A stretch of DNA of 64,000 bases from positions 1 to 64,000 of the forward strand of contig NZ_JADPKA010000066.1 of the NCBI RefSeq assembly GCF_023073715.1, written 5' to 3'. Origin of the DNA: Bradyrhizobium sp. 164. GTDB taxonomy: Bacteria > Pseudomonadota > Alphaproteobacteria > Rhizobiales > Xanthobacteraceae. Positions 1 through 64,000 of the stretch are shown here, piece by piece (positions within the stretch are counted from its first letter, which is position 1; each line of letters begins with the position of its first letter). The position numbers and the translations under genes were made by a program. Under the pieces are notes generated by a model, which worked only from the letters and a program-made list of their open reading frames with translations, did no database searches and was not told where the DNA came from.

Positions 1-97
1 CATGACTCGATGGAAGCCACTGTGGACCCTTATCCCGGGGTCCCGATTGGATGCCGATCACCCCGAAAACGGGGTCCTTATTCCATGCCGAAACACA
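1..97. mobile_element. Terminal part of an IS21-type insertion sequence (body outside window)
   Basis: Two copies of a GGGGTCCnnATTnnATGCC motif lie 34 bp apart (from about 37 and 71), and the second runs into GAAACACA. Repeated GC-rich binding-site blocks close to a terminal TGTG/CACA are the usual look of IS21-family ends in rhizobia. No transposase gene is inside the window, so the element body would lie to the left. The family call rests on the repeat pattern alone. The motif differs from the ends of the complete IS21 element at 25115-27422, so this is a different element. Confidence 0.45.
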
Positions 98-60250: not shown

Positions 60251-60715
60251 TCAGCGAGGAACGACGGCGGTGGCCTCAATTTCGACGCGCGCCGCCTTCT
60301 CGACGAGACGGACCACCTGAACCAGGGCCATCGCAGGATAGTGCGCTCCGAAGACGTCGCGGTAGGCCCTGCCCAACTCCTTCAGATTGGCCAGGTATTC
60401 GTCCATATCGACGACATACCAGGTCAGGCGCACGAGGTGCTCGGGCCGTGCTCCGGCTTCGGCCAGGATCGCAGCGATGTTGCTCAGGGTCTGGCGCACC
60501 TGCGCGACGAAGCCGTCCGCGAGACGCTCTTCGGCATCCCAGCCGATCACCCCGCCGGTGACGACGATGCGTCCCTCGGCAGCCATGCCGTTGGCATACC
60601 CCTTCGGCATTGGCCAGCCAGACGGCTGAAGGATCTGCGCCCGGGAACGGATTTCCTGCTCGGCTGCTGTCGGCAGCACCGCGAGCTGCGGGCCTTTTGG
60701 CGTCGTCACGGACAA
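60251..60715 (-). CDS. RidA family protein
   Basis: A 154-aa trimeric-type RidA/YjgF protein, slightly longer than the canonical 128 aa because of an N-terminal extension. Core blocks are NGMAAEGRIVVTGGVIGWD and ALVQVVRLVEKAARVEIEATA (conserved Glu before ATA). The start is TTG at 60715 or GTG at 60709, both after AAGGA. It lies 15 bp downstream of the aryl-CoA ligase gene. RidA proteins hydrolyse reactive enamines/imines; here it may clear an imine formed from 2-aminobenzoyl-CoA breakdown. Confidence 0.9.
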   Translation of the reverse strand: MSVTTPKGPQLAVLPTAAEQEIRSRAQILQPSGWPMPKGYANGMAAEGRIVVTGGVIGWDAEERLADGFVAQVRQTLSNIAAILAEAGARPEHLVRLTWYVVDMDEYLANLKELGRAYRDVFGAHYPAMALVQVVRLVEKAARVEIEATAVVPR

Positions 60716-60730
60716 TTCTCTATCCTTCTC

Positions 60731-62422
60731 TCATTCCGCAGCGACGCCGGAGGACGTCGCTGCAGCCTGCGCCAGCTGACGCAGGGCAAAGCGCTTCAAC
60801 TTGCCGGTCTCGGTTTTTGGCAGTTGCGCAACGAATTCGATCGCGCGCGGATACTTATATGGCGCGATCTCGCGTTTGACATGCTCCTGCAATTCGGTCA
60901 CGAGCTGCGCGTCCGGCGTCACGCCCGGCGCGACGACGACATAGGCTTTCACGATCATGCCGCGCGCCTCGTCCGGCGCGCCGACCACCCCGCATTCGGC
61001 GACCGCCGGATGCGTGAGCAGCGCCGCCTCGACATCGGTTCCTGCGATGTTGTAGCCCGCCGACACGATCATGTCGTCGGAGCGCGACTGGTACCAGAAA
61101 TAACCGTCGCCATCCATCACATAGGTATCGCCGGTGATGTTCCAGCCATTCTGGACGTATTTCCGTTGTCGCTCATCGGCAAGATAGCGACAGCCGGTCG
61201 GGCCACGCACGGCGAGACGACCCATCGTCCCCGGCGGCACGTCACGGCCTTCATCGTCGACGATCTTGGCCTCATAGCCCGGCACCGGCTTGCCGGTCGC
61301 GCCTGGGCGAATCTCGTCCTCGGTCGCGCTGATGAAGATGTGCAGCAATTCCGTCGAACCGATGCCGTCCATCAGCTTGATGCCGGTGGCCTTCAGCCAG
61401 GCTTCGAATGTTGGCTTGGGCAGCGTCTCGCCCGCGGAGACGCATTTGCGAAGCGAGGAGATGTCACGGCCCGCGAGCTTGCCGAGCATGGCCCGATATG
61501 CGGTCGGCGCAGTGAAGCAGACCGTGATCTTGTACTGCTCGATCGCATTCAGAATGTCGTCCGGCGTCGTCTTCTCCAGCACCACGAAGGAGGCGCCAAT
61601 ATGCATCGGAAACAACACGCCGCCGAAGCCGAAGGTGAAGGCGAGCGGTGCCGAGCCGACGAAGCGATCCTTCTGCTCGGCGCGCAAGATGTTGCGCGCA
61701 TAGCCGTCGCAGACCGCGAGCATGTCCCGGTGGAAATGCATGGTGCCCTTGGGATCGCCTGTCGTGCCCGAGGTGAAGGCGATCAGGCAGACGTCGTCGG
61801 ACGAGGTATCGACAGCCCTGAACTCGGGGCTCGCATCCGCGATCAGCGCTTCGAGCGAATCGGCCGCGCCATTGCCCCAATAGACCACGTGCTTGAGGCC
61901 GGGCGCCGCGGCCTTCGCCTTCTCCATCTCCTCGGAGAGCTTTCCGTCACATAGCGCGAGCCCGATCTCCGCCTTCTGGATCGGATATGACAGCTCCTTG
62001 GCCCGCAAGAGCGGCATGGTCGCCACGACGACGCCGCCGGCCTTGATGACCGCGAGATAGGTCGCGACCATCATCGGATTGTTGGCCGAGCGCAGCAGCA
62101 CGCGTCCGCCGGTCACGAGACCCAGCTTGCCGACCAGCACATTGGCGATGCGGTTCACGAGCGCTTGCAGCTCGCGATAGGTGTAGCTGACCGCAGGACT
62201 GATGACGCAAGGCGCATCGCCGTGGCCTTGCTCGACCCAGCGATCGAGGAAATAGCTGACGCAGTTCAATCGCGCGGGATAGCGCAGCTCCGGTCGCGTG
62301 AAGATGAATTCGGGCCAGAGCTCGCGCGGCGGCAGATGTTGCCGCGCGAACGTATCGACATGGGCCGTCGCAGCATTGCCGTCACACGAACCCGACACTT
62401 GAACCTTGGCAGCGTTGGCCAT
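60731..62422 (-). CDS. Aryl-CoA ligase (benzoate/2-aminobenzoate-CoA ligase family)
   Basis: A 563-aa AMP-forming ligase with the phosphate loop TSGTTGDPKG, the aromatic-binding region YGSTE-like GIGSTELLHIF, the hinge YQSRSDDMIVSAGYNI and the catalytic lysine in KTETGKLKR. Overall it follows benzoate-CoA ligases, and the RidA-ligase-MarR-Liv context matches aerobic 2-aminobenzoate (anthranilate) gene clusters. It activates the acid to its CoA thioester in the cytoplasm. It is a likely target of the Pat-like acetyltransferase at the KTETGK lysine. Substrate identity is not proven. Confidence 0.9.
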   Translation of the reverse strand: MANAAKVQVSGSCDGNAATAHVDTFARQHLPPRELWPEFIFTRPELRYPARLNCVSYFLDRWVEQGHGDAPCVISPAVSYTYRELQALVNRIANVLVGKLGLVTGGRVLLRSANNPMMVATYLAVIKAGGVVVATMPLLRAKELSYPIQKAEIGLALCDGKLSEEMEKAKAAAPGLKHVVYWGNGAADSLEALIADASPEFRAVDTSSDDVCLIAFTSGTTGDPKGTMHFHRDMLAVCDGYARNILRAEQKDRFVGSAPLAFTFGFGGVLFPMHIGASFVVLEKTTPDDILNAIEQYKITVCFTAPTAYRAMLGKLAGRDISSLRKCVSAGETLPKPTFEAWLKATGIKLMDGIGSTELLHIFISATEDEIRPGATGKPVPGYEAKIVDDEGRDVPPGTMGRLAVRGPTGCRYLADERQRKYVQNGWNITGDTYVMDGDGYFWYQSRSDDMIVSAGYNIAGTDVEAALLTHPAVAECGVVGAPDEARGMIVKAYVVVAPGVTPDAQLVTELQEHVKREIAPYKYPRAIEFVAQLPKTETGKLKRFALRQLAQAAATSSGVAAE

Positions 62423-62473: not shown

Positions 62474-62490
62474 TTTTAGGCTTAAAACAA
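62474..62490. promoter_or_regulatory. MarR operator-like site A (ligase promoter)
   Basis: TTTTAGGCTTAAAACAA lies 52 bp upstream of the ligase ATG. Its arms TTTTA/TAAAA are palindromic. It shares the core (A/G)GCTTnAAA with sites B and C upstream of marR, so a common regulator is likely. Confidence 0.6.
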
Positions 62491-62569
62491 TTTGGTGCAA
62501 TAGCGGATTTTGCGCATTCCTTGCTTTTTCCTGCGGCAAATAGGGTCTGCGTCCCGTCCCGCCGCCTAC

Positions 62570-63100
62570 TTACGGCCGGCTGCGCGCGGCCGATTTCTGC
62601 GCCGACGCCTTGGTCTTGGCCAGGAGCCGCATCAATTCCCGCACATCCTTCGGCGTCAGATCGGCGAAGAGGTCGGCGATCCAGGCTTCGTGTTCCGCAG
62701 CCATCCTGCGAAACTCGGCGCGCCCGAGTTTTGTGAGGCGGATCACTTGGACGCGGCGGTCCGTCTCCGAGGTACGCCGATCGAGGTGACCGGACTCAAC
62801 CAGACGCTCGACAAGGCCGGTGACGTTGCCGTTCGACACCATCATGCGCTTGGAGACGTCGGACAGCGTCATGCCGTCCGGCGCCTTGTCGAGCTGCGCC
62901 ATAAGGTCAAACCGAGGCAGCGTGACGTCGAACCGCTGCCGCAACCGGCCGCGGACTTCCCCTTCGATCAGGGTCGTGCAGGTCAAGAGCCGCAGCCACA
63001 GCCGAAGCTCTTCGGCATGGTCCTCCGGCGTTTCCACGGCCTTGGTTTCGGAATCGAGCATGTTGATGCAGTCACTCACGGCCGGCATTGGCGCCGGCAC
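62570..63100 (-). CDS. MarR-family transcriptional regulator
   Basis: A 176-aa winged-helix regulator with MTLSDVSKRMMVSNGNVTGLVERLVESG as recognition region and a wing with RRTSETDRRVQVIRLT. The extended N-terminus fits the group that controls aromatic acid degradation (badR-like) and responds to aryl-CoA. It sits between the ligase gene and the divergent Liv binding-protein gene, flanked by three similar operator-like sites. Confidence 0.92.
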   Translation of the reverse strand: MPAPMPAVSDCINMLDSETKAVETPEDHAEELRLWLRLLTCTTLIEGEVRGRLRQRFDVTLPRFDLMAQLDKAPDGMTLSDVSKRMMVSNGNVTGLVERLVESGHLDRRTSETDRRVQVIRLTKLGRAEFRRMAAEHEAWIADLFADLTPKDVRELMRLLAKTKASAQKSAARSRP

Positions 63101-63113
63101 AGATTCCCCAACG

Positions 63114-63130
63114 TTTTGAGCTTCAAATAA
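63114..63130. promoter_or_regulatory. MarR operator-like site B
   Basis: TTTTGAGCTTCAAATAA contains the perfect palindrome TTTGA-GCT-TCAAA. It lies 14 bp upstream of the marR start codon, a position suited to autorepression. Confidence 0.62.
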
Positions 63131-63183
63131 ATCGGAGCCGGCCGCAAGTCCAAAGCTGCAACAATCGACCGCAGGTCAATTTC

Positions 63184-63199
63184 TTTAGGCTTCAAATAA
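63184..63199. promoter_or_regulatory. MarR operator-like site C
   Basis: TTTAGGCTTCAAATAA is a hybrid of sites A and B and lies 70 bp from site B. It is 140 bp before the binding-protein gene and could control the transporter promoter. Confidence 0.6.
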
Positions 63200-63338: not shown

Positions 63339-64000
63339 ATGAAGACGCAAATGACCTTGGCCGCAGCCGCCATGCTGCTCGGCACCGCGATGAGCCCTGC
63401 CCTCGCCCAGGAGAAAATCAAGCTCGGCGTGGTCGTAACTCTGTCGGGACCTGCCGCTGCGCTGGGCCAGCAAGTCCGTGACGGCTTTGCGCTCGCGATC
63501 AAGGATCTCGGCGGCAAGATGGGCGGCCGCGATGTCGAGGTGATCGTCGCAGACGACGAATTGAAGCCGGATGCGGCGGTGACCAAGGTGAAAGGCCTGC
63601 TCGAGCGCGACAAGGTCGACTTTGTGGTCGGCCCGATCTTCTCCAACATCCTCCAGGCGATCCACCGGCCCATTACAGAATCGAAAACCTTCCTGATCAG
63701 CCCCAATGCCGGTCCGTCGACGTTTGCCGGCAAGGACTGCAATCCGTTCTTCTATGTGACGTCCTATCAGAACGATCAGGTCCACGAGATCCTTGGCAAG
63801 GTCGCGCAGGATCGCGGCTATAAGCGCATGTACCTGATGGTCCCGAACTATCAGGCCGGCAAGGATTCGGTGGCGGGCTTCAAGCTCGATTACAAGGGCG
63901 AGATCGTCGAGGAATCCTACATGCCGCTGAACACGCTGGACTTTCAGCCGGAGCTTTCCAAGATTTCCTCGCACAAGCCCGACGCGCTGTTCACGTTCAT
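63339..64000 (+). CDS. Liv-type ABC transporter substrate-binding protein (partial, runs off the window)
   Basis: From the ATG at 63339, preceded by AAGGA, 220 codons are visible and the frame is open at the window edge. A Sec signal peptide (cleavage near ALA|QEKI) is followed by KLGVVVTLSGPAAALGQQVRDG, the standard Peripla_BP_6 start. It is divergent from marR and likely delivers the aromatic acid activated by the ligase. The permease and ATPase genes presumably follow outside. Confidence 0.9.
   Translation, partial: MKTQMTLAAAAMLLGTAMSPALAQEKIKLGVVVTLSGPAAALGQQVRDGFALAIKDLGGKMGGRDVEVIVADDELKPDAAVTKVKGLLERDKVDFVVGPIFSNILQAIHRPITESKTFLISPNAGPSTFAGKDCNPFFYVTSYQNDQVHEILGKVAQDRGYKRMYLMVPNYQAGKDSVAGFKLDYKGEIVEESYMPLNTLDFQPELSKISSHKPDALFTF

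Follow-up and report, generated by a model that had tools for sequence, protein, structure and literature searches.

A candidate MarR operator shared by anthraniloyl-CoA and kynurenine-pathway genes in Bradyrhizobium

We propose that a MarR-family protein encoded near the end of a 64-kb stretch of Bradyrhizobium DNA (the window) is an autoregulated repressor of the catabolic route from tryptophan through anthranilate to anthraniloyl-CoA, and that it would be released from its operators by anthraniloyl-CoA, a scheme that we regard as likely from the sequence comparisons described below. The regulon is well supported computationally; its operator and its extension to the kynurenine genes appear to be new, and the kind of system is known.

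Results

The initial annotation had read three copies of one motif as operators of a MarR regulon around an aryl-CoA ligase gene. A direct check of the 64-kb window located all three, at 62474, 63114 and 63184, preceding the ligase gene, marR and the divergent binding-protein gene in the order that had been described:

60251..60715, minus strand: RidA-like protein (PF01042, 75.9 bits), 15 bp after the ligase gene
60731..62422, minus strand: benzoate-CoA ligase family protein, probable 2-aminobenzoate-CoA ligase (TIGR02262, 394.3; cut-off 375.25)
62474..62490, plus strand: operator 1, ligase promoter (position, shuffles, matrix)
62570..63100, minus strand: MarR-family regulator, 176 aa from the longest start (Pfam MarR_2, 47.0 bits; cut-off 27)
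63114..63130, plus strand: operator 2, marR promoter (matrix score of at least 15 in 71 of 73 GTDB loci)
63184..63199, plus strand: operator 3, upstream of the binding-protein gene, divergent from marR (at least 15 in 73 of 74 GTDB loci)
63339..64000, plus strand: periplasmic binding protein of an ABC transporter (PF13458, 150.8 bits); the gene continues past the window end

Operator 1 is separated by 51 bp from the ligase ATG (62422) and operator 3 by 139 bp from the binding-protein ATG (63339). Operator 2 lies 13 bp from the longest marR start (GTG 63100) or 52 bp from the ATG at 63061, close to where conservation starts in protein alignments. All three are imperfect dyads, with 7/11, 6/11 and 6/11 pairs at the best centre. 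When one mismatch is allowed, TTTNNGCTTNAAANAA occurs in the window at these three places only, each of them exact, against a mean chance expectation of 0.03 per window; three occurrences were never reached in 100 dinucleotide shuffles. A hold-out matrix was trained on 24 distinct exact-pattern sites from the marR loci of other genomes, with every kynurenine and monooxygenase/fusion-gene promoter site left out. It scored the three operators at 42.1, 37.6 and 36.0; the runner-up in the 64 kb scored 7.5, and the top score across 40 first-order Markov versions of the window was 14.2. Chance repeats as the origin of the copies are ruled out by the shuffles, the matrix scores, and the backward control and genome-wide rarity reported below. 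A separate 17-nt inverted repeat (62568-62584 / 63133-63149, 88% complementary) flanks marR and is probably due to chance.

The marR product carries a winged helix-turn-helix domain (PF12802, 47.0 bits, cut-off 27; PF01047, 39, cut-off 24.6), and reaches no curated NCBIfam MarR-subfamily cut-off, the best being BilQ at 50.1 against 125. Its AlphaFold model is weak overall (pLDDT 63.7), with a block at residues 61-140 of pLDDT 70-93. In the presumed recognition helix, NGNVTGLV, N92 and T94 are invariant and G91 nearly so among 15 aligned MarR proteins of 42-88% identity, five of which keep the whole octamer. The nearest solved chain, PDB 3boq (9e-21), is named just as a MarR-family regulator and shares NGNVsGLV.

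Beyond the window edge, the same contig continues with genes for a cupin, an FAD monooxygenase, a 783-aa fusion protein of the flavin monooxygenase/old-yellow-enzyme type, an enoyl-CoA hydratase and an SDR, and beyond the SDR lies a divergent operon encoding a hydrolase, an acyl-CoA dehydrogenase, a second ligase and dehydrogenases (the cupin and one dehydrogenase were named by eye). The locus thus combines a ligase, a flavin monooxygenase/OYE fusion and beta-oxidation-type enzymes, which is the anatomy of a 2-aminobenzoate-CoA cluster; as outlined in PMC4539516, the aerobic 2-aminobenzoyl-CoA pathway is built around a ligase and a monooxygenase/reductase. From these neighbours, 2-aminobenzoate is the probable substrate of the ligase. 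NCBIfam instead names the fusion enzyme a salicylyl-CoA 5-hydroxylase/oxidoreductase (1132.9; cut-off 1078), and linkage to kynurenine genes, described below, speaks for 2-aminobenzoate.

Searches of the whole genome (7.4 Mb, 115 contigs) found TTTNNGCTTNAAANAA exactly at four places, three in the window and one before a kynurenine operon, and the backward control had no match. A refined word, TTTNRGCYTNAAANAA, matches exactly at five positions genome-wide, every one within the proposed regulon; the fifth stands before the fusion gene of 2-aminobenzoyl-CoA monooxygenase/reductase type, a further 5.5 kb along. At one mismatch TTTNRGCYTNAAANAA gave ten further rows, one being the fusion-gene site on the opposite strand and nine lying elsewhere with matrix scores never above 14.6; the control gave 4 matches. 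The kynurenine-operon site, which differs from the others in its right flank, maps to a different contig (C76:340549), where an alpha/beta hydrolase gene starts 75 bp downstream of it and is followed by genes for tryptophan 2,3-dioxygenase (TIGR03036, 432.3; cut-off 390.7) and kynureninase (TIGR01814, 275.1; cut-off 246.4). Kynurenine-pathway operons of this kind turn tryptophan into anthranilate. HaHSL is the one family model matched by the first gene, which is assigned as kynB/arylformamidase by position alone. A MocR/GntR-type regulator gene and a pyridoxamine-oxidase-like gene, named by eye from their translations, adjoin the operon (L006:1763-4028).

A first matrix, trained on 33 distinct exact sites, gave a high score to one site upstream of the fusion gene and lower scores to two in the SDR/hydrolase intergenic region. 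With the hold-out matrix the fusion/monooxygenase promoter scored 38.3, the SDR/hydrolase intergenic region 24.8 and 19.0 (next in 20 kb, 6.6), and the kynurenine-operon site 23.9 (next in 11 kb, -0.1). Sites thus precede the CoA ligase gene and later pathway steps (monooxygenase/reductase, SDR), as in regulons of the CouR/BadR type. A MarR regulon around the ligase is upheld by position, genome-wide rarity and conservation; the scope first given to it was too narrow, since sites also lie before the monooxygenase/reductase gene, in the SDR/hydrolase intergenic region and before the unlinked kynurenine operon.

In 36 genomes of the same genus the exact pattern has 90 matches, against 11 for the backward control. 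Forty-two lie within 1.2 kb of a marR orthologue and 22 within 250 bp of kynB; a further 5 are within 9 kb of marR and 1 within 6 kb of kynB. Eleven more are near a MarR paralogue, at distances of up to 21 kb (up to 283 bp for three of these), and 9 lie elsewhere. With 70 of the 90 at the regulon, the motif is not equally frequent in unrelated intergenic DNA, the outcome that would have counted against the original proposal. Eight of the 36 genomes have no exact match; in four of them (L079, L080, L081, L086) the marR locus carries degenerate sites. One genome (G016) has the kynurenine site and no marR orthologue match; its cluster is broken over contig ends, and it is not a clear counter-example. 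A strong copy outside the regulon (36.0; L095:9182-9205, G021:C1:4169185) is flanked by a further ABC binding-protein gene and by an acyl-CoA-dehydrogenase-like gene, identified by eye.

Scored upstream of individual genes, with loci lacking the gene or its full upstream left out, sites of at least 15 were counted. In 22 same-genus 20-kb loci they precede the ligase gene in 22/22, marR in 20/22, the binding-protein gene in 22/22, the fusion gene in 13/13 and the SDR gene in 17/17. Corresponding figures for the GTDB loci are 70/70, 71/73, 73/74, 74/78 and 67/73; this set consists of 80 named loci, the best 80 of at least 591 retrieved by the fusion enzyme, and is mostly Bradyrhizobium, with loci that are closely related to one another and partly from the same genomes as the training set, so that the counts are not independent. 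Across 1638 kb of GTDB loci, 384 of 391 sites are no more than 330 bp upstream of a reference-set gene. A kynB-like gene was matched in 54 of 60 genomes, and 30 of their loci were sampled: the exact word is present in 22/30 upstreams, and the matrix reaches 15 in 25/30, where dinucleotide shuffles predict 0.02. The misses are L056, which is cut by a contig edge, L063 (6.4), and L064-L066, whose kynB-like genes are 38-42% identical and follow marR.

The kynurenine and ligase genes are themselves joined in a sister lineage. In L083, L084, L085 and L100 a single cluster holds kynB, kynU and the genes for tryptophan dioxygenase, RidA, the ligase and MarR, together with those for the binding protein, cupin, FAD monooxygenase and fusion enzyme (the fusion gene being cut by the stretch end in L083-L085), and sites occupy the divergent kynB/kynU promoter and the ligase promoter. 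In L078-L082 and L086 the gene immediately after marR is kynB-like. Since the two gene sets are joined in relatives, the motif marks the same set of genes whether these are linked or unlinked. In the joint-cluster lineage a conserved variant, ATATTATAGGCTTCAAATAATGCG, precedes a second cupin-type gene (L083:14706, L084:6540, L085:5651, L100:10045).

Across the phylum, 71 of 398 genomes encode the fusion enzyme (E≤1e-100). We hand-picked 25 loci outside the genus, 20 of them from 19 of the 71 fusion-bearing genomes, and counted 23, two being without the gene or its upstream. Within 200 bp of the fusion gene, 16/23 have a site of at least 15 and 11/23 one of at least 20 (shuffles, 0.10 and 0.015); L189 has a near-perfect dyad, ATATTTTAAGCTTAAAATAATTCG. 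The seven misses are L102, L192, L195, L197, L201, L202 and L203, of which L102 and L195 have good sites elsewhere within the same locus despite the miss. No site of at least 15 was found before the fusion or SDR gene in L192, L197, L201, L202, L203 or L106, and L219 and L106 combine marR, ligase and SDR genes without a good site (L219 best, 13.2). Kynurenine genes also adjoin the fusion gene in L197 and L201, and the tryptophan dioxygenase gene adjoins the ligase gene in L106. One exact match, in G045 (L218), stands apart from recognised cluster genes.

At two promoters the sites have a promoter-like geometry. On the minus strand the ligase promoter reads TTGCAC-16-TAAAAT (-35-like and -10-like hexamers), with operator 1 filling the spacer and overlapping TAAAAT; the fusion-gene promoter reads TTGCGC-16-TAAAAT, where the operator likewise occupies the spacer and extends into the second hexamer. 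TTGCNN-16-TAAAAT surrounds the site in 92/92 related ligase upstreams, and an alignment of 12 of these conserves both hexamer blocks. The looser TTGNNN-15..18-TANNNT occurs in 85/92 fusion-gene upstreams (most commonly TTGCNN, a spacing of 16 or 17, and TAAAAT) and in 0.52% of 5000 random 150-mers of the window (about 26). The geometry was read by hand and then counted, and as the -10-like hexamer lies within the operator the two are not independent. Scans with the strict sigma-70 consensus found no promoter at the window sites or the kynurenine site.

Discussion

Because the operator covers the spacer and the -10-like hexamer, a bound protein would block polymerase, which argues for repression; the site before marR argues for autoregulation. 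In the scheme we infer, a MarR dimer would recognise the imperfect dyad TTnTTTnRGCYTnAAAnAA and so occupy the promoters of ligase-RidA, marR, binding protein-cupin, monooxygenase/reductase and the unlinked kynurenine operon, as well as weaker predicted sites at the SDR gene and at the divergent hydrolase operon. Lying over the spacer and the -10 region, it would exclude RNA polymerase. Once anthranilate appears, basal ligase would convert it to anthraniloyl-CoA (2-aminobenzoyl-CoA), which would bind MarR and cause it to leave the operator, jointly switching on the supply of anthranilate from tryptophan, its uptake, its activation and the attack on its ring. One switch probably controls the whole tryptophan-to-anthraniloyl-CoA route. 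In its fullest form, the proposal is that a repressor reading anthraniloyl-CoA governs the complete path from tryptophan through kynurenine and anthranilate to anthraniloyl-CoA at two unlinked loci, that the CoA ester controls the operon supplying its own precursor, and that the operator has accompanied the kynurenine genes while they split off from the cluster (or became joined to it) and was kept beyond the genus and partly beyond the class; this we offer tentatively, as slightly less likely than not.

Anthraniloyl-CoA is probably the ligand by analogy with CouR (PMC4737184) and BadR (PMC10458429), on which CoA esters act according to these accounts, CouR and BadR being other proteins than this MarR. 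The same repressor and regulon might instead respond to free anthranilate or kynurenine, which we consider possible and distinctly less probable. The kynurenine operon acts before the ligase does, several genomes have a kynB-like gene immediately after marR, and IadR of auxin loci, as described in PMC11630574, is a MarR protein that binds a free aromatic acid and is released by IAA. Against a free acid, the ligase is itself a predicted target, which fits induction by its product.

It is rather improbable that MarR binds these sites as an activator, or activates some promoters and represses others. BadR is listed as a repressor/activator in PMC10458429, and operator 3, at 139 bp before the binding-protein gene, would suit such a role; at the ligase and monooxygenase promoters activation is unlikely, given a site that covers the spacer and the -10-like hexamer.

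Another reading has a different regulator bind the motif, such as the MocR/GntR-type protein encoded beside the kynurenine operon or a MarR paralogue. For the MocR/GntR-type gene no counterpart turned up in L083-L085 or L100, where the two gene sets are joined. Elsewhere, in L087 and L089, a paralogue 48-55% identical to this MarR is accompanied by a similar site next to its gene. Among the MarR matches listed for this genome (three of 14, the rest ranking lower), the best after this MarR is 31% identical. MarR is present in 12 of the 16 site-bearing stretches from outside the genus and was not found in the retrieved stretch of the other four (L194, L200, L205, L206), which would fit a different regulator; the motif nonetheless precedes marR itself in 71 of 73 GTDB loci, and we judge this explanation very unlikely. 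In four genomes carrying a paralogue of 48-53% identity (G022, G011, G017, G007; loci L069, L071, L076, L077), the fusion gene was not found between the enoyl-CoA hydratase and FAD monooxygenase genes; G004 and G009 also carry such a paralogue, and G009 keeps the fusion gene. In G011 the genes for the paralogue and for a second fusion enzyme are neighbours separated by the same motif (L087), and this second enzyme scores higher on the salicylyl-CoA model (1344.8). That the repeats are merely conserved AT-rich promoter elements, as the included TAAAAT hexamer might suggest, is scarcely credible with five exact places genome-wide and dinucleotide shuffles reaching 15 in a mean of 0.10 of 23 and 0.02 of 30 upstreams.

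A regulator that had so far been just a neighbour gene now has a defined candidate operator and a target list, and claims about gene function can be put to the test: 'salicylyl-CoA' for the fusion enzyme and 'hormone-sensitive lipase' for the first kynurenine gene may be misleading names here. Among the literature matches listed, whose scope did not extend to Schuhle 2001 or the original BadR paper, we found no description of the operator or of a link between MarR and kynurenine genes. One close parallel is CouR of Rhodococcus jostii (PMC4737184) and Rhodopseudomonas palustris (PMC10458429), which these sources describe as a MarR repressor that controls several aryl-CoA pathway promoters through a single inverted repeat and is released by the CoA ester. 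Its operator, cATTGA-5-TCAATg, differs from TTTnRGCYTnAAA here, as do the substrates, and the ligand proposed here is inferred. BadR of R. palustris is, like the protein studied here, an alphaproteobacterial MarR, and the signal listed for it in PMC10458429 is an alicyclic CoA ester, 2-ketocyclohexane-1-carboxyl-CoA; its targets, unlike those here, are benzoate degradation genes. IadR and IacR are described as MarR repressors of an aromatic (auxin) pathway, the iad route ending in anthranilate (PMC9613470, PMC11630574), and IadR senses IAA, unlike our proposal. The solved Variovorax IadR chain matches this MarR weakly (7kfo, 4.6e-06).

TyrR, the regulator of the Shewanella tdo-kyn genes, belongs to a different protein family from MarR. 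By the account in PMC5343134 it couples kynurenine genes to wider amino-acid catabolism, as proposed here, with a different set of targets. The present regulon would tie control of the bacterial kynurenine pathway to the CoA-dependent anthranilate route in Bradyrhizobium, a genus of plant symbionts in which tryptophan, anthranilate and auxin metabolism matter. A further close counterpart is the cluster of Azoarcus (Aromatoleum) evansii studied by Schuhle et al. in 2001, which reportedly encodes a two-flavoprotein fusion, a binding protein, a RidA-like protein and a MarR-like regulator. The 2-aminobenzoate-CoA pathway, as outlined in PMC4539516, comprises a ligase, a monooxygenase/reductase and further beta-oxidation functions, as here. 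Unlike the A. evansii cluster, the Bradyrhizobium system is given a proposed operator, and its predicted regulon reaches an unlinked kynurenine operon.
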